From Duganella sp. BJB480 (GTDB lineage Bacteria; Pseudomonadota; Gammaproteobacteria; Burkholderiales; Burkholderiaceae_D): a stretch of 64,000 nucleotides of DNA. Positions within the stretch are counted from its first letter, which is position 1; each line of letters opens with the position of its first letter. Shown here in pieces: positions 22,104 through 64,000 of the stretch. A program made the translations under genes and the position numbers. Below the pieces are notes generated by a model. The model did not search any database. It was not told the DNA's origin and worked only from the letters and a program-made list of their open reading frames with translations. The stretch covers positions 400,323-464,322 of the forward strand of contig QVIN01000007.1 in assembly GCA_003416985.1 (NCBI GenBank), written 5' to 3'.

Positions 22104-22130
22104 ATGAATTTATTTGGACCATATATTCAT
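22104..22130. promoter_or_regulatory. Candidate LysR-type operator
   Basis: Dyad ATGAAT-N15-ATTCAT (22104-22109 and 22125-22130) in the 92-base gap between the divergent chrA halves and the LysR gene, just upstream of the regulator start. Interrupted dyads at this place are typical binding sites for LysR-type regulators. Confidence 0.45.
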
Positions 22131-22137
22131 TTTTCTG

Positions 22138-23028
22138 ATGAAAATCGACACACTCGGCGTACAGGCTTTTGTCGCCATCGCGGACTTCGGCGGATTCCAG
22201 AAAGCGGCGGAGACGCTGCACATCACGCAGACCGCCGTCACGCAGCGGCTGCGCAACCTGGAGGACTTCCTGGGCGTGATGCTGATCGAACGCACCACGC
22301 GCTCCATCGCGCTGACCAGCATCGGCAAGGATTTCCTGCCGCAGGCGCGGCGCCTGTTGGATGAGCTGTCGTCCACGCTGAACGAAATCCGCGAGACCGG
22401 CAAGGCGCAGCGCGGCGACGTCTCCCTCGCCTGCGTGCCGACGGTGGGCATTCAATATCTGCCGCAGATCATCCAGGCCTATTCGGCGCGCTTCCCGGAG
22501 AACCGCATCAAGATCCTCGACTACGCCTCGTCGCGCGTGGCGGAGGCGGTGCAGCGGCGCGAAGCGGAATTCGGCATCGGCCTGGGAGGCGGCGTGCATC
22601 CCGAACTGGTATCGGAGCCACTGATGGAGGACCATTTCGTACTGGTCTGCCGCGACGATCATCCGCTGGCGAAGCGTCGTTCGCTGACGTGGACGCAGAT
22701 CCAGCCCTACCCGCTGATCTTCTCGGGCGACGTGAACGGCAACCGCGCGCTGCTCGACAGCTACTTGGGCAGCAAGAGCGCGGAACTGAATCTGCATTTC
22801 CAGTACGACGTGCAGCGCAGCGCGACGGCGGTGGGGCTGGTGGCATCGGGCATCGCGGCGGCCATCGTGCCAGGGCTGGCGATCCTCAAAGGCAGCTACC
22901 CGCGCCTGCGCGCCATCAAGCTGAAGGAGCCGACCATCTCGCGCCAGCTGGTGCTGATCACGCGCCGCGCCGGCCACTTGTCTCCAGCCGCACAAGCGCT
23001 GTACGACATGCTCAAAACGGGCCGCTAA
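22138..23028 (+). CDS. LysR-family transcriptional regulator
   Basis: 296 residues from ATG 22138 (MKIDTLGVQAFVAIADFGGFQKAAETLHITQTAVTQ...), the normal start for the winged helix-turn-helix; a longer reading from 22114 is less likely. The C-terminal domain is the periplasmic-binding-protein-like effector domain. It is divergent from the split chromate transporter, which it probably regulates. The gene is followed after 5 bases by the first copy of the palindromic repeat. Confidence 0.92.
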   Translation: MKIDTLGVQAFVAIADFGGFQKAAETLHITQTAVTQRLRNLEDFLGVMLIERTTRSIALTSIGKDFLPQARRLLDELSSTLNEIRETGKAQRGDVSLACVPTVGIQYLPQIIQAYSARFPENRIKILDYASSRVAEAVQRREAEFGIGLGGGVHPELVSEPLMEDHFVLVCRDDHPLAKRRSLTWTQIQPYPLIFSGDVNGNRALLDSYLGSKSAELNLHFQYDVQRSATAVGLVASGIAAAIVPGLAILKGSYPRLRAIKLKEPTISRQLVLITRRAGHLSPAAQALYDMLKTGR

Positions 23029-23033
23029 CCCAG

Positions 23034-23119
23034 TGGGGTCAAGTCTGACATTCGGACACGAGCACAACCGTAGCGGCCGCTACGGTTGTGCTCGTGTCCG
23101 AATGTCAGACTTGACCCCA
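23034..23119. repeat. 86-bp perfect palindrome, repeat family copy 1
   Basis: An uninterrupted 86-bp palindrome (43-base arms, no loop) that begins TGGGGTCAAGTCTGAC and ends with its reverse complement. It fills the junction between the LysR stop (23028) and the stop of the convergent TPR gene (23122). Copies 2 and 3 at 33049 and 60734 share the outer 27 bases of each arm exactly. The inner arm here is AGCACAACCGTAGCG. Confidence 0.97.
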
Positions 23120-23121
23120 AT

Positions 23122-25197
23122 TTAAAACGGGGCGCTGATGCCGTATTCGCGGAACTTGGCTGACATCGCGCGTCGCTCCTGTTCTTCCGCCTCGCGCTGC
23201 GCCGGTTCGCGGCTGGTGATCTCGGCCGGCATGCGGCCGGCGGCGGTTTCAAACTGTCCGCGCGCTTCTTCCCGACGGCCCAGCGCCTCGTAGGCCAGTC
23301 CGCGCTGGAAGTAGGCCGGCGCGTAGCCGGGCTGCGACTGCAATCCCAGCGACAGCGCCTGCAACGCCTCGTCGTATCGCTTCAACGCTTGCAACGTCAG
23401 CCCCAGGTGGTACTGCACCATCATCGACGGCTTGTTGAACAAGACGCGATTGAGCTCCTCGGCCTTGCGCACGATGCGCAGGCTCTCGTCGTACCGGCCG
23501 TCCTTGCGCGATTGCGCGGCGTAGTTGATGTAGCTGTAGAAGGTGCGCGTCTGCCGCTTCTTGACCATCTCGCGCAGGTCGGCCAGATAGCGGCTGGTGT
23601 CGTCGCCGGCGTGGCGGGCGCAGTCCTCGTAGGCGTTCGCGCCGCCCCTGCCCCAGCTGCTGTACACACGCCGCTCGCCGATGCGGCTCAACAGCCCCGC
23701 CATGGTCGCGTAGTCGCCAGCCTGGCAGGCGAAGTAGGCGTAGGCGTTCAGGTTCCACGGATCGGGATAGCGATCCACCAGCGCATCGAAGCTGGTCTTC
23801 ATTTCGCTCCAGTCGGCGAGGCTGTTGTCGAACAGCTTGTCGTCGTAGGCCATCTGGCTCATGTACCAGTAGACGCGCGCGTACATCGCGTCCGAATCGG
23901 CAGTCCGCATCGACTTGGCGCTGCGGGCGATTTCGTCCACCGTGTCCGGCGCGCGGGCCCACATCTCGGTCGAGAAGAAGGCGGCGGTGAAGTAGGTCTC
24001 GTGATAGTCCGGGAACTCCTTGCGGGCGTCGGCCAGCAGGTGCGTCACGCCGAGGAAGCTGTAGTGGTCCGTGTAGGGCAGCACCTGCAGCATGGCCTTG
24101 TAGAACTCGGGATCGCGCTCCTTCAGCATCGGCTTCTCGAGCGTGTTGAGGATGCCCATCGCTTCGCGCGTGTCCGCGAGCATGCGTGCGGCGTCCTCCT
24201 TGGGCACGTCCTTGAACTTGGCCGTGCCGCGAAAGGTGGTGGCGCGTCCAAGCAGCACGTAGACGTGATACATGCGCGCCACGCTCGATTTGGGGAACTG
24301 CTTCTCCCAAGCCTTGGCCTCGCTCTCCATGCGCGTCCAGAAGGCCGCGTCGCGCGTACCCTGCGGACGCCAGTGCAGCTGGTTGTAGAAGATGGCCAGC
24401 TTCCACACACCGCTGCCGGTGCGCTGGGTCGGATCCAGCAAGCGCTTGCGCAATGCCTCCAGGCTTTTGTAGTCGGCCTTTTGCAGATAGCCCTGCACCT
24501 CGGCGATCAGCGCGTTGCGGGCATTCAGTTCGGTGTTGTCCTGCGCAGGGGCGACGGGCCTGGCTGCGGGGGCGGCCTCCGCGACCACAGCGCCTTCCAT
24601 CGCGCGCGCCAGCGCCTGCTGCATGCGTCCCGCTTCCGGCCCGGCAGGCCGCGACTTGTCGAGCCGTTCCGCCCACTCGTCGCCGCCGATGGGACGCTGC
24701 GACGCCACGCCATCCACGTACACGCTGACGTAACCAAAGTAATTGAGCAGCATCGGCTTGCCGGGGCCGAAGTAATCCTTCTCCGCCACCAGCCCGTCGC
24801 CGCGCGGCGGCCAGAGGTCGCTCATGTGCAGCACGTCGCGGATCGCCGCCTCGACGCGCGCGGGATCGAGCTTCCTGCACGGATCGTTCATGCGCTTGGG
24901 ATGGAAGCTACACAGCTGCGCGCCGCTGCGTGTCTTGATGAACCACTGGGCGATCGGGTCGCCGGCATGGCCATCAGGCTGCTCGATCAGCATCGACGCT
25001 TCAATCGGCTCGCCCGCGTACTGCGCCAGCTTTTGATGGATGGGCCGCTGCGGATGCTGCTGCGGCCAGACGCGCATGAACTCATTCTCGGCGATCGGAT
25101 GATCGCGCAGCGCGGAGGCGTAGCTCAAATCCCACGGCAGTTCGGCGCCATGCGCGGCGCAGCACACCAGCAAGCTGGCTAAAAATCTGTACGACAT
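23122..25197 (-). CDS. Exported TPR-repeat protein of unknown function
   Basis: 691 residues from ATG 25197 (MSYRFLASLLVCCAAHGAELP), which gives a clean signal peptide; the ATG at 25218 lies in the upstream terminator stem. The C-terminal 120 residues contain TPR repeats (MMVQYHLGLTLQALKRYDEAL and AYFQRGLAYEALGRREEARGQFE), ending in a charged tail. A middle region of about residues 220-560 has helical repeats with many aromatic residues. It is probably periplasmic. Its ribosome-binding site (GGGGG) lies in the 3' arm of a terminator hairpin. No close named homologue is recognised. Confidence 0.8.
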   Translation of the reverse strand: MSYRFLASLLVCCAAHGAELPWDLSYASALRDHPIAENEFMRVWPQQHPQRPIHQKLAQYAGEPIEASMLIEQPDGHAGDPIAQWFIKTRSGAQLCSFHPKRMNDPCRKLDPARVEAAIRDVLHMSDLWPPRGDGLVAEKDYFGPGKPMLLNYFGYVSVYVDGVASQRPIGGDEWAERLDKSRPAGPEAGRMQQALARAMEGAVVAEAAPAARPVAPAQDNTELNARNALIAEVQGYLQKADYKSLEALRKRLLDPTQRTGSGVWKLAIFYNQLHWRPQGTRDAAFWTRMESEAKAWEKQFPKSSVARMYHVYVLLGRATTFRGTAKFKDVPKEDAARMLADTREAMGILNTLEKPMLKERDPEFYKAMLQVLPYTDHYSFLGVTHLLADARKEFPDYHETYFTAAFFSTEMWARAPDTVDEIARSAKSMRTADSDAMYARVYWYMSQMAYDDKLFDNSLADWSEMKTSFDALVDRYPDPWNLNAYAYFACQAGDYATMAGLLSRIGERRVYSSWGRGGANAYEDCARHAGDDTSRYLADLREMVKKRQTRTFYSYINYAAQSRKDGRYDESLRIVRKAEELNRVLFNKPSMMVQYHLGLTLQALKRYDEALQALSLGLQSQPGYAPAYFQRGLAYEALGRREEARGQFETAAGRMPAEITSREPAQREAEEQERRAMSAKFREYGISAPF

Positions 25198-25233
25198 AAA
25201 AAAATCCCCCAAGGCCAAAAGCGCTGGGGGATT
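25198..25233 (-). terminator. Terminator after secF that overlaps the TPR gene leader
   Basis: On the minus strand, AATCCCCCA and TGGGGGATT (25233-25225 and 25211-25203) form a stem, followed by seven Ts that run straight into the ATG at 25197. It is a good intrinsic terminator for the secDF transcript, yet its 3' arm contains the GGGGG Shine-Dalgarno of the TPR gene. Expression of that gene by read-through would therefore be limited by termination and by sequestration of the ribosome-binding site. Confidence 0.75.
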
Positions 25234-30851: not shown

Positions 30852-30980
30852 TTGCGGACTTCTGGAAACTGTTGAAGAAAATTCGGATAGGCCCGAAGGC
30901 GGTGCAAGTCGTACAATACCGGCGTTGCTTTACTGCGGCCAACCCTCTATTTTACGCTAGTGCCCGAAAAACGCTCCAAT

Positions 30981-33047
30981 ATGCCTGTTTCAACCTCGAA
31001 AACCGTCAAAAAGACAGTCAGCCCTGAAGCCAAGCTGGCCAAGCTCGGCCTGCACACGGATATGGACCTGGTGCTGCACCTGCCCATGCGCTACGAGGAC
31101 GAAACCCAGGTCATCACCATCGAAGAGGCGCGGCTGCATGGCGGCGAGACGTCGCAGGTCGAGGGATTGGTGGTCAAAAATGAAATCACCTACAAGCCGC
31201 GCAAGCAGCTGCTGGTGCATATCGCCGACGAGACGGGCGACCTGCAGCTGCGCTTCATGAACTTCTACGGCAGCCAGGTCAAGCAGCTGGCCGAGGGCAC
31301 GCGGGTGCGCGCGCGCGGTGAGCTGAAACACGGCTTCTTCGGCGCCGAGATGGTGCATCCTGCGTACAAGGTGGTCAACGAAGGCGCGCCGCTGCCCACT
31401 TCCCTGACGCCGGTGTATCCGTCGGGCGAAGGGCTGTCGCAGCCGATACTGCGGCGCGCCATCGGCGATGCGATGAAGCGGGTCGACTGGACCGACACGC
31501 TGCCGGAGCAGCTGCGCGCGCGGATGCAGCTGTCCGACTTCGAGCCGGCGGTGAAGCTGCTGCACTATCCGCCGCAGCAGGTGGACGAGCATGCGCTGCT
31601 CGACCGTTCGCATCCGGCGTGGACGCGCATGAAGTTCGACGAGCTGCTGGCGCAGCAGCTGTCGTTGAAGCGCGCGCAGCGTGCGCGCCGCGCCAAGGGG
31701 GCGGCGGCGCTGACGGTGATCGGCGCGTTGTCGGCGAGCTTCCAGGCCGCGCTGCCGTTCAAGCTGACCGGCGCGCAGCAGCGCGTGCTCAACGAAATCC
31801 GCGCCGACTTGCGCCACCCGTATCCGATGCAGCGGCTGCTGCAGGGAGATGTCGGCAGTGGCAAGACGGTGGTGTCGGCGCTGGCCGCCGCGCAGGCCAT
31901 CGACAGCGGCTACCAGGCCGCGCTGATGGCGCCGACCGAGATCCTCGCCGACCAGCACTTCCGCAAGATCGCCGCGTGGATGGAGCCCTTGGGCGTGAAG
32001 GTCGCGTGGCTGACGGGCAGCTTGAAGAAAAAAGAAAAGCTGGCCGCGTACGCGCTGATCGAATCGGGCGAGGCGCAACTGGTGATCGGCACGCACGCGC
32101 TGATCCAGGAGGCGGTGAACTTCGCCAATCTCGGGTTGGTGATCGTCGACGAGCAGCACCGCTTCGGCGTGGGGCAGCGGCTTACCTTGCGCAACAAGGG
32201 CGTCGAGGGCGCGGTGCCGCACCAGCTGATGATGTCGGCCACGCCGATCCCGCGCACGCTGGCGATGACCTACTACGCCGACCTGGAAGTGTCGGTGATC
32301 GACGAGCTGCCGCCGGGCCGCAGTCCCATCGTCACGCGCGCCATCGACCAGAACCGGCGCGACGAAGTGATCGAACGAGTGCATGCCGCCGCGCTGGAGG
32401 GACGGCAGATCTACTGGGTCTGTCCGCTGATCGAGGAATCGGAAGCGCTGCAACTGCAAACCGCCACCGACACGCACGCCCTGCTGGCTGAAGCGCTGCC
32501 GGACCTGAACGTGGGCCTGGTCCACGGCCGCCTCAAGCCGGCCGAGAAGCAGGCGGTGATGGACGCCTTCAGCGCCAACGAGATGCAGGTGCTGGTCGCC
32601 ACCACGGTGATCGAGGTGGGCGTGGACGTGCCGAATGCATCACTGATGGTGATCGAGCATGCGGAGCGTTTCGGTTTATCGCAGCTGCACCAGCTGCGCG
32701 GACGCGTGGGGCGGGGCTCGGCGGCGTCGGTGTGCCTGCTGCTGTACCAAAGCCCACTGGGAGGCGTCGCCAAGCAGCGCCTGATGACGATGCGCGAAAC
32801 CACCGACGGCTTCGAAATCGCCCGCCGCGACCTGGAGATCCGAGGCCCCGGCGAATTCCTGGGCGCCCGCCAATCCGGCCAGGCGATGCTGCGCTTCGCC
32901 GACCTGGAGACGGACGGCTGGTTGGTCGACCAGGCGCGCGACGTCGCCCACGACCTCCTCCACGCCAACACCCCCGAAAAAGCCGCCACGGTCGAAGCCC
33001 ACCTTGCCCGCTGGCTAGGCGGCCGCGAAGAATTTCTCAAAGTCTAG
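30981..33047 (+). CDS. recG: ATP-dependent DNA helicase RecG
   Basis: 688 residues from ATG 30981; a GTG at 30960 would add seven residues, and neither has a clear ribosome-binding site. The N-terminal wedge/OB domain (about residues 60-160) is followed by the helicase motor: Walker A GDVGSGKT near residue 289, DEQH box near 389, motif III MSATPIPRTLAM, and motif VI region RGRVGRGSAASVCLL. RecG remodels stalled replication forks and branch-migrates Holliday junctions. It is divergent from queA, and its stop lies one base before palindrome copy 2. Confidence 0.97.
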   Translation: MPVSTSKTVKKTVSPEAKLAKLGLHTDMDLVLHLPMRYEDETQVITIEEARLHGGETSQVEGLVVKNEITYKPRKQLLVHIADETGDLQLRFMNFYGSQVKQLAEGTRVRARGELKHGFFGAEMVHPAYKVVNEGAPLPTSLTPVYPSGEGLSQPILRRAIGDAMKRVDWTDTLPEQLRARMQLSDFEPAVKLLHYPPQQVDEHALLDRSHPAWTRMKFDELLAQQLSLKRAQRARRAKGAAALTVIGALSASFQAALPFKLTGAQQRVLNEIRADLRHPYPMQRLLQGDVGSGKTVVSALAAAQAIDSGYQAALMAPTEILADQHFRKIAAWMEPLGVKVAWLTGSLKKKEKLAAYALIESGEAQLVIGTHALIQEAVNFANLGLVIVDEQHRFGVGQRLTLRNKGVEGAVPHQLMMSATPIPRTLAMTYYADLEVSVIDELPPGRSPIVTRAIDQNRRDEVIERVHAAALEGRQIYWVCPLIEESEALQLQTATDTHALLAEALPDLNVGLVHGRLKPAEKQAVMDAFSANEMQVLVATTVIEVGVDVPNASLMVIEHAERFGLSQLHQLRGRVGRGSAASVCLLLYQSPLGGVAKQRLMTMRETTDGFEIARRDLEIRGPGEFLGARQSGQAMLRFADLETDGWLVDQARDVAHDLLHANTPEKAATVEAHLARWLGGREEFLKV

Positions 33048-33048
33048 T

Positions 33049-33134
33049 TGGGGTCAAGTCTGACATTCGGACACGAGCTCTGCTGTAGCGCCCGCTACGG
33101 CAGAGCTCGTGTCCGAATGTCAGACTTGACCCCA
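33049..33134. repeat. 86-bp palindrome, repeat family copy 2
   Basis: Same outer arms as copy 1 (TGGGGTCAAGTCTGAC at the left edge) with inner arm AGCTCTGCTGTAGCG and its partner CGCTACGGCAGAGCT. Pairing is perfect except for one T-G pair, which is a G-U wobble in plus-strand RNA, and a CC centre. It begins one base after the recG stop (33047) and ends two bases before the stop of the convergent 38-residue gene (33137). Confidence 0.96.
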
Positions 33135-33255: not shown

Positions 33256-34473
33256 TCAGGCCGCCTTCAACGCGCCACGTTCGATGGCGCGCTCGTTGAT
33301 CGGCAGGTTGATCAGCCCCGCCATCACGCTCAAGCCGATGGCGATGCCCCAGACGATGTCGTAGCTGCCCAGTTTTGCGAACAGGTAGCCGCCCAGCCAT
33401 ACGCCGATGAAGCTGCCCACCTGGTGCGAGAAGAACACCACGCCCGCCAGCATCGACATGTGCTTGACGCCGAAGATGCCGGCGATGATGCCGTTCGTCA
33501 GAGGCACCGTCGACAGCCAGATGAATCCTATCGCCGCCGCGAAGACGTACACCGAGTACGGCGTCAATGGCGCCAGCAGGAACAGGCCGATGACCACCGC
33601 TCGCGTGAAGTAGATCGACGACAGCAGGTAGCGCTTGGGGAAGCGCCCTCCCAGCTTGCCCGCGTAGTAGGAGCCGAAGATGTTGAACAAGCCAATCAGC
33701 GCCAGCGCCATCACCGCCACGCCCGGACTGGCGATGCCCTTGTCCTTCAGGTACGCCGGCATGTGCACGCCGATGAACACCAGCTGGAAGCCGCACACGA
33801 AATAGCCCGCCACCAGGAACAGGAAGGAGCGGTTGCCCACCGCCTCGCTCATCGCTTCGCGCACGCTTTGCTGCGCGCCGCCGCCATGCTCCACCGCCGG
33901 TTCGCGCAGATGGAAGGCCATCGGCACCATCAGCAGCACCACCAGCCCGGCCAGCAGGTAGAAGGCGGTCTGCCAACCCACTGCGGAAATCAGTTGCTGC
34001 TCGACCGGCATCATCAAAAACTGGCCGAAGGAGCTGGCCGCGCCGGAGATGCCGAATGCCCACGAGCGCTTCTCCACCGGCGCCACACGGCCGATGATGC
34101 CGCTGACCGCGCCGAACGCGGTACACGCCAGCGCCAGGCCGATGAACACGCCCGAGCCGATGACGAACATGGTCGGATCCTTCACCAGCGCCATCCACAC
34201 CAGCCCCGCCATGTAGCTGAAGGCGCCCACCACCACCACGCGCATGGTGCCGTAACGGTCGGCCGCCATGCCGGCGAACGGGCCGAAGGCGCCCCACAAC
34301 AGGTTCTGCAAGGCCAGCGCCAGCGAATAGGTTTCACGCGTCCAGCCGTTGGCCTGCGAGATGGGCTGCATCCAGAAGCCGAAGCCGTGGCGCACGCCCA
34401 TGGCCAGCGTCAGGACGACGCCACTGGCCAGCAGGACGGTTTTCAGTGAGGGGGGACGAGCGGCGACGAACAT
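33256..34473 (-). CDS. MFS transporter
   Basis: 405 residues, 12 predicted membrane segments in two halves, with the MFS loop motif GMAADRYGTMRVVVVG after segment 2. The start SLKTVLLASGVVLTLAMGVRHGFGFW resembles oxalate/formate-antiporter-like and monocarboxylate-type MFS proteins. The substrate is unknown. It is the first gene of a unit with the 38-residue protein. The Gfo/Idh oxidoreductase upstream on the same strand ends 70 bases before it; no terminator is seen between them, so they may be co-transcribed. Confidence 0.9.
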   Translation of the reverse strand: MFVAARPPSLKTVLLASGVVLTLAMGVRHGFGFWMQPISQANGWTRETYSLALALQNLLWGAFGPFAGMAADRYGTMRVVVVGAFSYMAGLVWMALVKDPTMFVIGSGVFIGLALACTAFGAVSGIIGRVAPVEKRSWAFGISGAASSFGQFLMMPVEQQLISAVGWQTAFYLLAGLVVLLMVPMAFHLREPAVEHGGGAQQSVREAMSEAVGNRSFLFLVAGYFVCGFQLVFIGVHMPAYLKDKGIASPGVAVMALALIGLFNIFGSYYAGKLGGRFPKRYLLSSIYFTRAVVIGLFLLAPLTPYSVYVFAAAIGFIWLSTVPLTNGIIAGIFGVKHMSMLAGVVFFSHQVGSFIGVWLGGYLFAKLGSYDIVWGIAIGLSVMAGLINLPINERAIERGALKAA

Positions 34474-43118: not shown

Positions 43119-43183
43119 AAAAAGCCACCATCGGCACTGAGCGCGATCTTGAGCGCGCTCAGTGCCGATGGTGGCTTTTTTTT
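43119..43183. terminator. Strong bidirectional terminator between symporter and small membrane protein
   Basis: 27-base perfectly paired arms (43119-43145 and 43154-43180) with an 8-base loop. Eight Ts follow on the plus strand and five on the minus strand, so it terminates both the symporter transcript and the convergent 66-residue gene. Confidence 0.95.
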
Positions 43184-60182: not shown

Positions 60183-60728
60183 ATGTTCGCTAAAAAATTG
60201 ATCGCAGCCGCCGCCGCACTGATCGCGATGCAGGGCGCCTACGCCGATGACAAGCTGGTCGACTCCGTCGCCATCGATTACGGCAATGCCGCCAAGGTCC
60301 AGATGGTGCGTTTCAGCGCCGCCAAGGACTGGAGCGCGCGCTGGTTCCAGTCGAACGGCACGCACCTGAGCGGCTACTGGGAAGCCAGCGCCGGTTTCTG
60401 GAAAGAGAGCCAGTACCAGAATATTTCTGGCAACACCGCCCACCTGTGGGATGTCGGCTTCACGCCGGTGTTCCGCTTCGAGAATGACAACAAAAAGGGC
60501 CTGTACTACGAAGGCGGCATCGGCGTGCACCGCCTGTCCAAGCTGTACGACAACGACACCTACCGCCTGTCGACCCACTTCCAGTTTGGCGACCACATCG
60601 GCATCGGCTACGTGTTCGACAACAACTGGGAAATCGGCGGCAAGATCCAGCACTTCTCGAACGGCGGCTACAAAAAGCCCAATACCGGCGTGAACTTCCT
60701 CGAAGTCAAAGCGGCCTACCACTTCTAA
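60183..60728 (+). CDS. Lipid A 3-O-deacylase, PagL-type acyloxyacyl hydrolase
   Basis: 181 residues: signal peptide (MFAKKLIAAAAALIAMQGAYA), then an eight-stranded outer-membrane barrel. The catalytic His and Ser lie in KIQHFSNGGYKKPNTG (near residue 157), with a glutamate in NFLEVKAAYHF completing the triad seen in Pseudomonas PagL; the C-terminal F is typical of outer-membrane proteins. It removes the 3-position acyl chain from lipid A in the outer membrane. AAGGA lies 5 bases before the ATG; a TACAAT box at 60128-60133 may be the -10 element. Followed by palindrome copy 3. Confidence 0.92.
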   Translation: MFAKKLIAAAAALIAMQGAYADDKLVDSVAIDYGNAAKVQMVRFSAAKDWSARWFQSNGTHLSGYWEASAGFWKESQYQNISGNTAHLWDVGFTPVFRFENDNKKGLYYEGGIGVHRLSKLYDNDTYRLSTHFQFGDHIGIGYVFDNNWEIGGKIQHFSNGGYKKPNTGVNFLEVKAAYHF

Positions 60729-60733
60729 AAATT

Positions 60734-60820
60734 TGGGGTCAAGTCTGACATTCGGACACGGGCTCTACTGTAGCGCGGCGCTACGGTAGAGCCCGTGTCC
60801 GAATGTCAGACTTGACCCCA
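60734..60820. repeat. 87-bp palindrome, repeat family copy 3
   Basis: Same outer arms as copies 1 and 2, with inner arm GGCTCTACTGTAGCGC, partner GCGCTACGGTAGAGCC and a one-base centre. It has one T-G pair at the same place as copy 2. It lies between the pagL stop (60728) and the stop of the convergent L,D-transpeptidase (60826). Confidence 0.96.
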
Positions 60821-60825
60821 ATGTC

Positions 60826-62055
60826 TTATACGTTCGTTTCGGCGACGATCTTCCAGCTTTTGCCTTCCTTGGCCCAGTACTGCTTCTTGCGCACCGCGTG
60901 GCGGAACTTGCCGACCACGATCTGCTGCGTGAAATTGCTGACGATGACTTCTTCCTGGCTCGGCTGGCGGAAATAGCTCGGCTCGGTCACGGTCACGCTG
61001 ATCTTCTTGGCACCCGGCAGGAAGCGATTCTTGTCCAGCCAGGCGTTCACATCCTCGTCGGCCGCCGACTTGAAGCGCGGCGAATATAGCGCTCGCAGGC
61101 CGGCATCGTCGCGGTTCTCGACGTCGCGGCGCCACGATTCCACCAGCGCGCTGGCGACACGCAGGTCGCGCTCCATCTGTTCCTTGCTGACGAACTCGAC
61201 CTGGTCGCCGATCAGGATCGGCGTCTTGCCGATCTCCACCGTGCGGGTCAGCGTGTTGAGGTCGTCGTTGCTGACCACTACGCAGCCGTCGGTCGACAGC
61301 GGCGGACGGCTGAAGGTCTCCGGCGGCGTGCCGTGCACCCAGATGCCGGAACCGCTGCGGCCCTGCGCCTTGTCCCAGTCGTTCGGATAGTCGAGCGGCA
61401 ACGCGCCCTTGCCATACATGTCGGGCAGCTTGATGCCGGGCAGGCGGCCGATGATGTAGTACACGCCCACCGGCGTGCGCATGTCGCCTTCCTTGAGCTT
61501 GTTGATGCCCAGCTTGCCCTGGCTGACGTAGAAGTCGGACAGCAAACGGATCTGGTCGTTGCGGTTCTCGTACAGGTAGAGTCGCGAATGCTTGGCGTCG
61601 ACAATCAGCGCGTGGCGCTGGTCCTTGCGCATCTGCAGCAGCGCGCGCGGCAGCAGCGCCGGCGACGGCCGGCCAGGTTCGGCCTGCAGGCGCACGGCCG
61701 CCTCGCGGCGCAGATCGGCCAGCTTGGAATCCTCGCCCGGCGGCACGGCAGCGCCCAGCACGTTCACCGCGCGGGTATGCATCAGCAGGATGTCGCCGCG
61801 CACCAAGTGGCCAAGGCGGAAGTTGGGATAGGCCTCCACCAGCGCATCGGCCTTTTGCTGGGCCTCACGCAGGTTGTGCTGGGCCAGCTCGCGGTAGATA
61901 TCGGACAGCAGCTCTTCGGGATTGGCTTTACGAACGACCGGCGCCCGCGCAGGCTTTTTTGCGGCGTAGCTGGCCTCCCCTCCCAAGACACTGAGAAGTA
62001 CCGCGCATAGCAAGCCACTGGTACGCCAGTGTTGTGTAAATCTAAAGTGTGACAT
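60826..62055 (-). CDS. L,D-transpeptidase with C-terminal NTF2-like domain
   Basis: 409 residues with a signal peptide ending near SYAAKKP. The YkuD catalytic domain (about residues 145-290) carries GIWVHGTPPETFSRPPLSTDGCVVVSN with the catalytic cysteine near 258 and its histidine near 239. A C-terminal NTF2/Cds6-like domain (about 300-409) follows. Such enzymes make 3-3 cross-links in peptidoglycan or attach proteins to it. Its ATG overlaps the stop of the upstream TPR gene as TGATG, so the two are coupled. Confidence 0.93.
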   Translation of the reverse strand: MSHFRFTQHWRTSGLLCAVLLSVLGGEASYAAKKPARAPVVRKANPEELLSDIYRELAQHNLREAQQKADALVEAYPNFRLGHLVRGDILLMHTRAVNVLGAAVPPGEDSKLADLRREAAVRLQAEPGRPSPALLPRALLQMRKDQRHALIVDAKHSRLYLYENRNDQIRLLSDFYVSQGKLGINKLKEGDMRTPVGVYYIIGRLPGIKLPDMYGKGALPLDYPNDWDKAQGRSGSGIWVHGTPPETFSRPPLSTDGCVVVSNDDLNTLTRTVEIGKTPILIGDQVEFVSKEQMERDLRVASALVESWRRDVENRDDAGLRALYSPRFKSAADEDVNAWLDKNRFLPGAKKISVTVTEPSYFRQPSQEEVIVSNFTQQIVVGKFRHAVRKKQYWAKEGKSWKIVAETNV

Positions 62056-63614: not shown

Positions 63615-63729
63615 GCCTGACGATAACCTACTTTCACACTGGTTGCAGCACTATCATCGGCGCAGAGTTGTTTCACGGTCCTGTTCGGGATGGGAAGGGG
63701 TGGGACCAACTTGCTATGGTCATCAGGCA
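63615..63729 (-). rRNA. rrf: 5S ribosomal RNA
   Basis: The minus strand begins TGCCTGATGACCATAGCAAG and contains the conserved CCCATCCCGAACAGG region and the pairing 3' end ATCGTCAGGC, i.e. a complete 5S rRNA of about 115 bases of betaproteobacterial type. It follows the 23S gene after about 160 bases and precedes the terminator. Confidence 0.97.
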
Positions 63730-63892
63730 TTGACTTGTACTAGCGTCGCGTCTTTTTCCGCGCCGCCAAGAATCTGGAGGAAGTATTATAAACGATTTAT
63801 ATCGTTTATGCAGTAAATATTTAGGTAATGAAGTTGTATCAACGAACGTTCCAACGCACTTCTCATTCACCACAACCTGCTAAGGTTATAGG

Positions 63893-64000
63893 GACAAGCC
63901 GTACGGGCAATTAGTATCAGTTAGCTTAATGCATTACTGCACTTCCACACCTGACCTATCAACGTCCTGGTCTCGAACGACCCTTCAAAGAGCTCAAGGC
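63893..64000 (-). rRNA. rrl: 23S ribosomal RNA, 3' end (partial)
   Basis: On the minus strand the right edge reads into the conserved 3' end of 23S rRNA, including GACGTTGATAGGTCAGGTGT and AGCTAACTGATACTAATTGC. It is cut by the window edge. The exact 3' end is estimated to within about 10 bases. The 23S-5S spacer (63730-63892) holds no tRNA. Confidence 0.93.

Follow-up and report, generated by a model that had tools for sequence, protein, structure and literature searches.

Three long palindromes at gene ends

The stretch of DNA analysed here (the window) comprises 64,000 nucleotides of contig QVIN01000007.1 from Duganella sp. BJB480, and the element under study is an 86-bp palindrome at positions 23034..23119 (element 1; no strand assigned). 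Its two 43-nt arms pair over their whole length (43/43 pairs) and no base is left unpaired at the centre, in agreement with the sequence-only reading, which had described a perfect, loop-free palindrome. The left outer arm (23034..23060, forward strand) and its inverted copy, the right outer arm (23093..23119, reverse strand), are each 27 nt long; this outer arm is near-invariant among the copies of the element and is shared with the repeats that bracket a RAYT transposase gene. Between them lies an interior (23061..23092, no strand) formed by the inner arms, with GTAG...CTAC, and the tip, which varies among copies yet remains self-complementary. As single-stranded DNA, element 1 has a predicted folding energy of -55.8 kcal/mol (z = -17.3).

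Two further copies, likewise without strand, were present in the window: element 2, of 86 bp with 41/43 pairs (33049..33134), and element 3, of 87 bp with 42/43 pairs (60734..60820). The outer 27 bases were identical in the three elements and all of them were located between predicted genes, so that the earlier account of three copies with identical 27-base arms, 86-87 bp in length and containing no gene, was borne out. Allowing up to 3 mismatches, a 16-base arm occurred 6 times in the window, versus a mean of 0.29 in 100 shuffles.

Each element was flanked by convergent predicted genes. Upstream of element 1, a forward-strand gene (22114..23028) ended with TAA 5 bp before the palindrome, and a reverse-strand gene (23122..25218) ended with TAA 2 bp after it. 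Element 2 was preceded at 1 bp by the TAG of a forward-strand gene (30960..33047) and followed at 121 bp by the TGA of a reverse-strand gene (33256..34473), while element 3 was located 5 bp from the TAA ends of both its neighbours (60183..60728, forward strand; 60826..62055, reverse strand). Element 1 had no match in plasmid or phage collections at E 1e-5, and an origin from either source was rejected.

A genome-wide family with fixed ends and self-complementary interiors

The genome containing the window (G000; 7.27 Mb, 36 contigs) carried the exact arm 16-mer at 160 sites, 80 per strand, and the reversed control at none. We found 63 full palindromes in G000 and 58 in the genome of a sister species (G062); the count of three copies was therefore right for the window and wrong as the size of the family. 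Both ends of an element were required to be the exact 16-mer, so arm positions 1-16 were conserved by construction, and the 34 of the 160 G000 arm sites that lay outside full palindromes were excluded. The analyses below covered 53 of the 63 G000 elements and 50 of the 58 G062 elements.

The 53 G000 copies were 86-88 bp long, and their pairing ranged from 36/43 to 44/44. Beyond the defining 16-mer, arm positions 17-27 were changed in 2 of 106 G000 arms, each time at position 26, and in a single arm of the 100 from G062. Positions 28-36 were variable, with both arms changing in step. Over positions 28-40, the two arms of a copy agreed at 647 of 689 positions in G000, versus a mean of 547 when arms were shuffled between copies (maximum of 2000 shuffles, 576), and at 618 of 650 in G062, versus a shuffled mean of 529 (maximum 548). 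The trinucleotide GTA at positions 37-39, the inner end of the arm, was near-invariant (102, 105 and 103 of 106 G000 arms; 94, 100 and 99 of 100 G062 arms), and GTAG was absent from the outer 27 nt. The interiors were all distinct in the 53 G000 copies, as were 49 of the 50 in G062.

The sequence-only reading had conceded that it would fall if the genome held no further copies and the three were due to assembly artefacts or vector-like sequence. This explanation was rejected in practice, given the 63 palindromes and, within the genus, the presence of the 24-base arm in 10 of 74 genomes. As a separate observation, G000 contigs C3, C5, C6 and C11 start approximately 150-215 bp from an arm, so the arm repeats may break the assembly.

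The arms bracket a RAYT gene and co-occur with it

G000 contains two Y1 transposase genes, and the one on C8, which lies outside the window, is bracketed by arms of the family. Its product scored above the cut-offs of both the Pfam Y1_Tnp profile (47.1 bits; cut-off 23) and the NCBIfam model NF047646 REP_Tyr_transpos (86.9; cut-off 80), and its HUH motif ('NHYH') and Y...NP motif were conserved in ten relatives. A sequence search against solved structures returned nothing at E 0.001, but a fold search with the predicted model (mean pLDDT 76.5) did match, the best hit by E-value being 4er8 (E 3.7e-7), the structure of a RAYT in complex with a REP hairpin. Residues 247-277 reached 21.6 bits against the helix-turn-helix (HTH) profile HTH_11, under its cut-off of 25, and the C-terminus was helical in the model. 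Comparison of G000 with G062 yielded a dN of 0.022 and a dS of 0.169, which suggests that the coding sequence is under purifying selection.

RAYTs of at least 69% identity were single-copy in each of the 10 genomes having one. The same M28 peptidase gene adjoined the RAYT in 5 of the 30 loci tested, belonging to five species (G000, G062, G006, G047 and G040). The bracketing arms were complete in some relatives, and L073-L077 have inverted repeats that match exactly over 26-33 nt. More generally, inverted repeats of at least 14 nt flanked 18 of 29 RAYT loci of the genus and 37 of 75 named loci, versus 22 of 309 mismatched pairings (104 of 110 loci entered this test, for which 150 bp were needed on each side). 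The second RAYT of G000 (L032) presented its own diverged inverted repeats at 1090-1117 and 1896-1923 (AGGGACAGAG and GGGGACAGAG).

We then compared gene and repeat across 74 genomes of the genus, which as used here spans Duganella and Rugamonas (Duganella being placed in Oxalobacteraceae). This span is based on six loci that share exact 300-base stretches with named records of Duganella levis, Duganella alba, Duganella aquatilis, Duganella sp. SG902, Rugamonas rubra and Rugamonas apoptosis. The exact 24-mer arm was present in 10 of the 74 genomes, a RAYT of at least 69% identity in 10 and both in 8; the 24-mer thus occurred in 8 of 10 genomes with a close RAYT versus 2 of 64 others. With a looser arm pattern, the figures were 10 of 10 versus 7 of 64 (p = 2.7e-8), and 57 of the 74 genomes had no match. 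A pattern for the other RAYT-adjacent arm types of the genus matched in 15 of the 74 genomes, the number of sites ranging between 1 (G053) and 134 (G007), and had no match in G000. The more alike two RAYTs were, the more alike were their arms, mean arm identity climbing from 0.48 to 0.95 (Mantel r 0.50; maximum of 999 permutations, 0.10; 81 of 110 RAYT loci, the remainder having no intact frame or no upstream GGGGTCA).

One genome, G001, carries a RAYT-like frame of 61% identity with one internal stop (G001:C8:50029-50580) together with 27 loose arm matches. Its arms are possibly relic repeats left after decay of the RAYT gene.

Copies differ between sister species

At least 31 of the G062 sites corresponding to the 53 G000 copies also hold a palindrome. 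Shared-site counts from here on refer to the 28 pairs in which both flanks matched at 90% identity or more, one-flank and weaker matches being omitted. At these 28 sites the palindrome is present in both species, and the remark that one of this length is unstable unless maintained is not borne out.

Of the 21 elements left unmatched, 17 had flanks free of arm motifs and 10 were queried. Four of the 10 queried G062 sites had no palindrome (L046:1501, L046:4796, L057:1501 and window 23034), L057 being the cleanest vacant site. Three others (L043, L070 and L071) held a palindrome with another interior, and two (L054 and L060) were matched by one flank only. The G062 site for L066 (L169, ~220-1390) contained a segment of approximately 1.2 kb that has two open frames, of which the second encodes 137 aa, and no arm-like sequence; judged by gene order only, this segment is toxin-antitoxin-like.

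Two minor observations concern the vacant sites. At the G062 site orthologous to 23034 (L152, ~1632-1690), a different short hairpin is present around TTCCCGCTTTCGCGGGAA, and a pattern for this hairpin had no match in the window. The gene beside the L046 element (~1490) ends with TAA in G000 and with TGA at the vacant G062 site; from this one case, insertion may alter the stop region.

Copies are found just past stop codons

The copies were expected to be intergenic, and this was largely the case: of the 53 examined in G000, 24 were located in convergent gaps, 22 in co-directional and 3 in divergent ones, 1 was in a predicted frame and 3 were unresolved. The 37 neighbouring gene pairs of the window, used for comparison, comprised 8 convergent, 18 co-directional and 11 divergent pairs (p 0.013 for convergent and p 0.006 for divergent; orientations rest on our own gene calls). 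The distance from the copies to 73 gene 3′ ends had a median of 7 bp. TAA was the stop codon of 40 of the 41 genes that end within 0-12 bp of a copy, versus 72 of 154 other genes. The flanks read roughly AAAT ahead of TGGGG on both sides and were A-rich on the left and T-rich on the right. The left and right flanks of a copy showed no likeness beyond chance.

A probable miniature element built from the inverted repeats of a RAYT locus

Altogether, we consider it very probable that the palindrome is a non-autonomous, REPIN-like miniature element consisting of two RAYT/TIRYT terminal inverted repeats (~40 nt each) joined back to back. The single transposase gene on which it most likely depends lies elsewhere in the genome. 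We favour this explanation because the RAYT is bracketed by the same arms and has the same peptidase gene as its neighbour in each of five species, because the arms occur in genomes with a close RAYT and are missing in most others, and because copies, which are found just past gene ends, differ in their presence between sister species. The sequence-only reading had proposed a miniature mobile palindrome or a REP-like element moved by a transposase elsewhere, to be supported by dozens of intergenic copies, a RAYT and empty sites in sister strains. The 63 copies, the arm-bracketed RAYT and the vacant G062 sites, including that of 23034, fit this proposal.

In this explanation, the RAYT would be the mobilising enzyme. 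Being a Y1/HUH single-strand nuclease, it would recognise the element as a single-strand hairpin, cut and rejoin it, and insert it in A-rich DNA beyond stop codons, either because such sites are targeted or because insertions do least harm there.

Several points weigh against this explanation. Mobility is something we infer from presence and absence, and a vacant site is compatible with either insertion or loss. Two of the four vacant sites are not clean, since L046:4796 aligns at 73-81% and the gap at 23034 is filled with other sequence. The arms at the C8 RAYT itself are imperfect: on the 3′ side the first 7 bases of the arm are missing, and on the 5′ side the arm closer to the gene carries a substitution. 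Inverted repeats of at least 14 nt were also obtained in 22 of 309 mismatched-partner controls. The 12-mer GGGGACAGAGTG from the repeats of the second RAYT had a single exact occurrence in G000, looser forms not having been searched. Counting genes as far as 25 bp from a copy weakens the TAA excess (61 of 76 in G000; 47 of 67 versus 69 of 142 in G062, p 0.004).

The coupling across the genus also has its weak points. The looser arm pattern behind the 10 of 10 versus 7 of 64 split was designed after the RAYT-flanking arms were known and its matches include those arms, and the 69% identity limit was chosen after the list was known. Loose matches are few in G058 (3) and G048 (4), the exact 24-mer occurs in G001 and G036 without a close RAYT, and the converse is true of G048 and G053. 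Finally, the Mantel result could be explained by shared descent alone as well as by co-evolution, because gene and flanking arm are physically linked.

Interiors change symmetrically at shared sites

The 28 shared sites kept their outer arms and flanks while both inner arms often changed together. Of 336 inner pair positions, 301 were unchanged, 18 had changed in one arm, 15 in both arms with pairing retained and 2 in both arms otherwise; approximately 2 double changes would be expected if the arms varied independently, an estimate drawn from the same counts. Interior edit distances ranged from 0 to 11, with 12 sites at 2 or less and 14 at 4 or more. In the window, the G062 orthologue of element 2 (L132) has an altered interior, and that of element 3 (L133) differs by one symmetric and two one-arm interior changes, its adjoining 10+10 bases being identical. 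These symmetric changes could be explained by selection on the stem, by exchange with other copies, or by copying of the hairpin onto itself, through template switching or hairpin repair.

Within the RAYT explanation, we asked which of the last two applies. Exchange between copies, through ectopic gene conversion or through loss of a copy and a second insertion into the same preferred site, stands in our judgement slightly short of an even chance of being the source of the interior changes rather than hairpin correction in place. The invariant ends would offer the homology for it, and inner arm, tip and length often shift jointly at shared sites. Several shared sites also show arm remnants or altered adjoining bases. 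In addition, the sole identical pair of interiors among the G062 copies analysed (L115 and L121) occupies two shared sites where the G000 interiors differ, which makes exchange slightly likelier and rewriting in place slightly less likely.

However, interiors are almost all unique (53 of 53 and 49 of 50 copies), and the search for donors revealed no excess at changed sites. Among the 14 sites with a distance of 4 or more, 2 had an identical copy elsewhere and 6 had one within one change, compared with 5 within one change among the 12 sites with a distance of 2 or less; the donor comparison does not separate exchange from change in place. Among the equal-armed copies, 5 of 33 and 11 of 37 had an inner-arm haplotype without counterpart in the set of their own genome. 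Moreover, interior distances of 5 to 7 were seen at L041, L058 and window 60734, where all 20 adjoining bases matched. The orientation of the tips was uninformative because they are near-palindromic (5 of 20 unequal, equal-length tips fitted better when inverted).

The other possibility, on the unlikely side in our view, is that a RAYT flanked by terminal inverted repeats (TIRs) and bearing a putative HTH, of a class for which no REP-like repeats beside the gene are reported, maintains the palindromes, the outer 27 bp being frozen for recognition and the centre being rewritten symmetrically in place. If this were true, each copy would carry a self-complementary 'barcode' written as the hairpin is copied onto itself, a natural record of hairpin formation at its site. 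With the symmetric changes at shared sites, it becomes testable whether long palindromes in bacterial chromosomes stay near-perfect through selection, copy exchange or hairpin-templated repair.

Terminators and other explanations

The position of the copies would also suit bidirectional terminators or protectors of mRNA 3′ ends maintained by the host, with selection on the RNA stem producing the covariation of the arms. The median of 7 bp past gene ends, the 24 of 53 copies between convergent genes and the preservation of the stem by symmetric changes agree with such a role, and so do the A-rich left and T-rich right flanks. At least 4 T were present in positions 2-7 outside the palindrome at 85 of 206 element edges of G000 and G062, versus 1.6% of random window positions (the control being random positions and not gene ends). 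The earlier remark that the arms have no T-run is correct for 23034 in the consensus scan and does not extend to these edges. Nevertheless, a terminator scan at 22950-23250, the sole copy scanned, made 0 calls, and the GC-rich hairpin followed by a T-run that defines an intrinsic terminator was not found there, T content varying elsewhere. Arm positions 17-27 are near-fixed in sequence, beyond what mere pairing demands, the looser arm is missing from 57 of 74 genomes of the genus, and 4 of the 10 sites queried in G062 are without a palindrome. We therefore regard host-maintained terminators as improbable, although the T-rich edges make termination possible as a side effect of the palindromes.

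A miniature inverted-repeat transposable element belonging to a conventional DDE insertion sequence, with no connection to the RAYT, would likewise be small, dispersed and bounded by terminal inverted repeats. It is highly improbable given that in several species a Y1/HUH gene is bracketed by the arms and co-occurs with them, and that a copy has unlike flanks on its two sides, no search for a DDE gene bracketed by the arms having been made. A factor-binding barrier to transcription or replication, kept for chromosome organisation, could use the near-fixed 27-nt ends as its binding site and is scarcely credible in view of the patchy distribution in the genus and the coupling to the RAYT.

Relation to known RAYT systems

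The RAYT-derived element was compared with described systems. The C8 locus has the features of a RAYT locus: a RAYT-type Y1/HUH protein, a low-copy gene that keeps its place and a dispersed palindromic family that flanks it. RAYT-like genes with long terminal inverted repeats, found here at both gene ends, have been named TIRtrons or TIRYT, and their repeat families are described as moderately abundant, with many dimers or clusters (Di Nocera et al. 2013, PMC3733652). Our locus resembles them in combining such a gene with a dispersed repeat family, and the palindromes are, in our assessment, a copy-rich member of this kind. They differ from what that work describes in that two repeats abut into one near-perfect palindrome, of 86-88 bp in 53 copies. 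Many TIRYT terminal inverted repeats, though not all, carry GGGGWSAS (PMC3733652); our family reads GGGGTCAA (7 of 8 positions, the last base being missed), and many relatives read GGGGTCAG. None of the names Duganella, Janthinobacterium and Herminiimonas appears in the main text of PMC3733652.

In the classification of PMC6006769, 291 of 292 Bertels group 1 RAYTs and 20 of 26 TIRYTs were assigned to TnpAREP subclass 2.1, near whose genes that work reports no REP-like sequences. Compared by description only, the C8 protein shares with this subclass its length, the NH[YF]H and Y...NP motifs and a low copy number, and may share its C-terminal HTH-like part, whereas here 63 palindromes share the inverted repeats of the gene. 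The family thus provides a copy-rich case for the kind of RAYT that is TIR-flanked and has an HTH-like tail, whose substrate remains unsettled in the literature cited, with gene and repeat tied by bracketing, by co-occurrence and by sites that differ between sister species.

In the REPINs of Pseudomonas fluorescens SBW25, as given in PMC3116915, the first residues of the 16-mers are 71 bp apart, which by summation makes approximately 87 bp in total. The palindromes resemble them as inverted doublets with two invariant ends and a less conserved, pairing spacer, extragenic and tied to a RAYT. The ends of REPINs, however, hold GTAG-tagged REP sequences, while GTAG is found here at the inner end of the arm and not at the foot of an outer hairpin.

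According to Nunvar et al. (2010, PMC2817692), orthologous rayt genes keep their place while the flanking REPs change and stay palindromic, and RAYTs by its criteria were restricted to gammaproteobacteria, Thauera being discussed as a transfer. This is a precedent for symmetric change, with the difference that it concerns REPs flanking the gene, and here dispersed copies at shared sites. A single template-switch replication event can create a stem or alter both of its sides (PMC8794818); the process is described there for RNA genes, and its extension to a mobile palindrome would be ours. That whole repeats are joined back to back and that interiors change symmetrically at fixed sites may be the unusual features of the family. 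No such family in Duganella or Massilia was found among the open-licence literature matches listed, which is weak evidence of absence.

Two features of the window fall outside the family. An inverted repeat with 30-nt arms (97% complementary, 2-nt centre) at 43119-43180 starts with AAAAA and ends with TTTTT, and looks like an ordinary bidirectional terminator. An Rfam scan of the window at gathering thresholds reported 5S and 23S rRNA only; the 5S rRNA and the 3′ end of the 23S rRNA gene occupy 63615-64000, where the window terminates within an rRNA operon.
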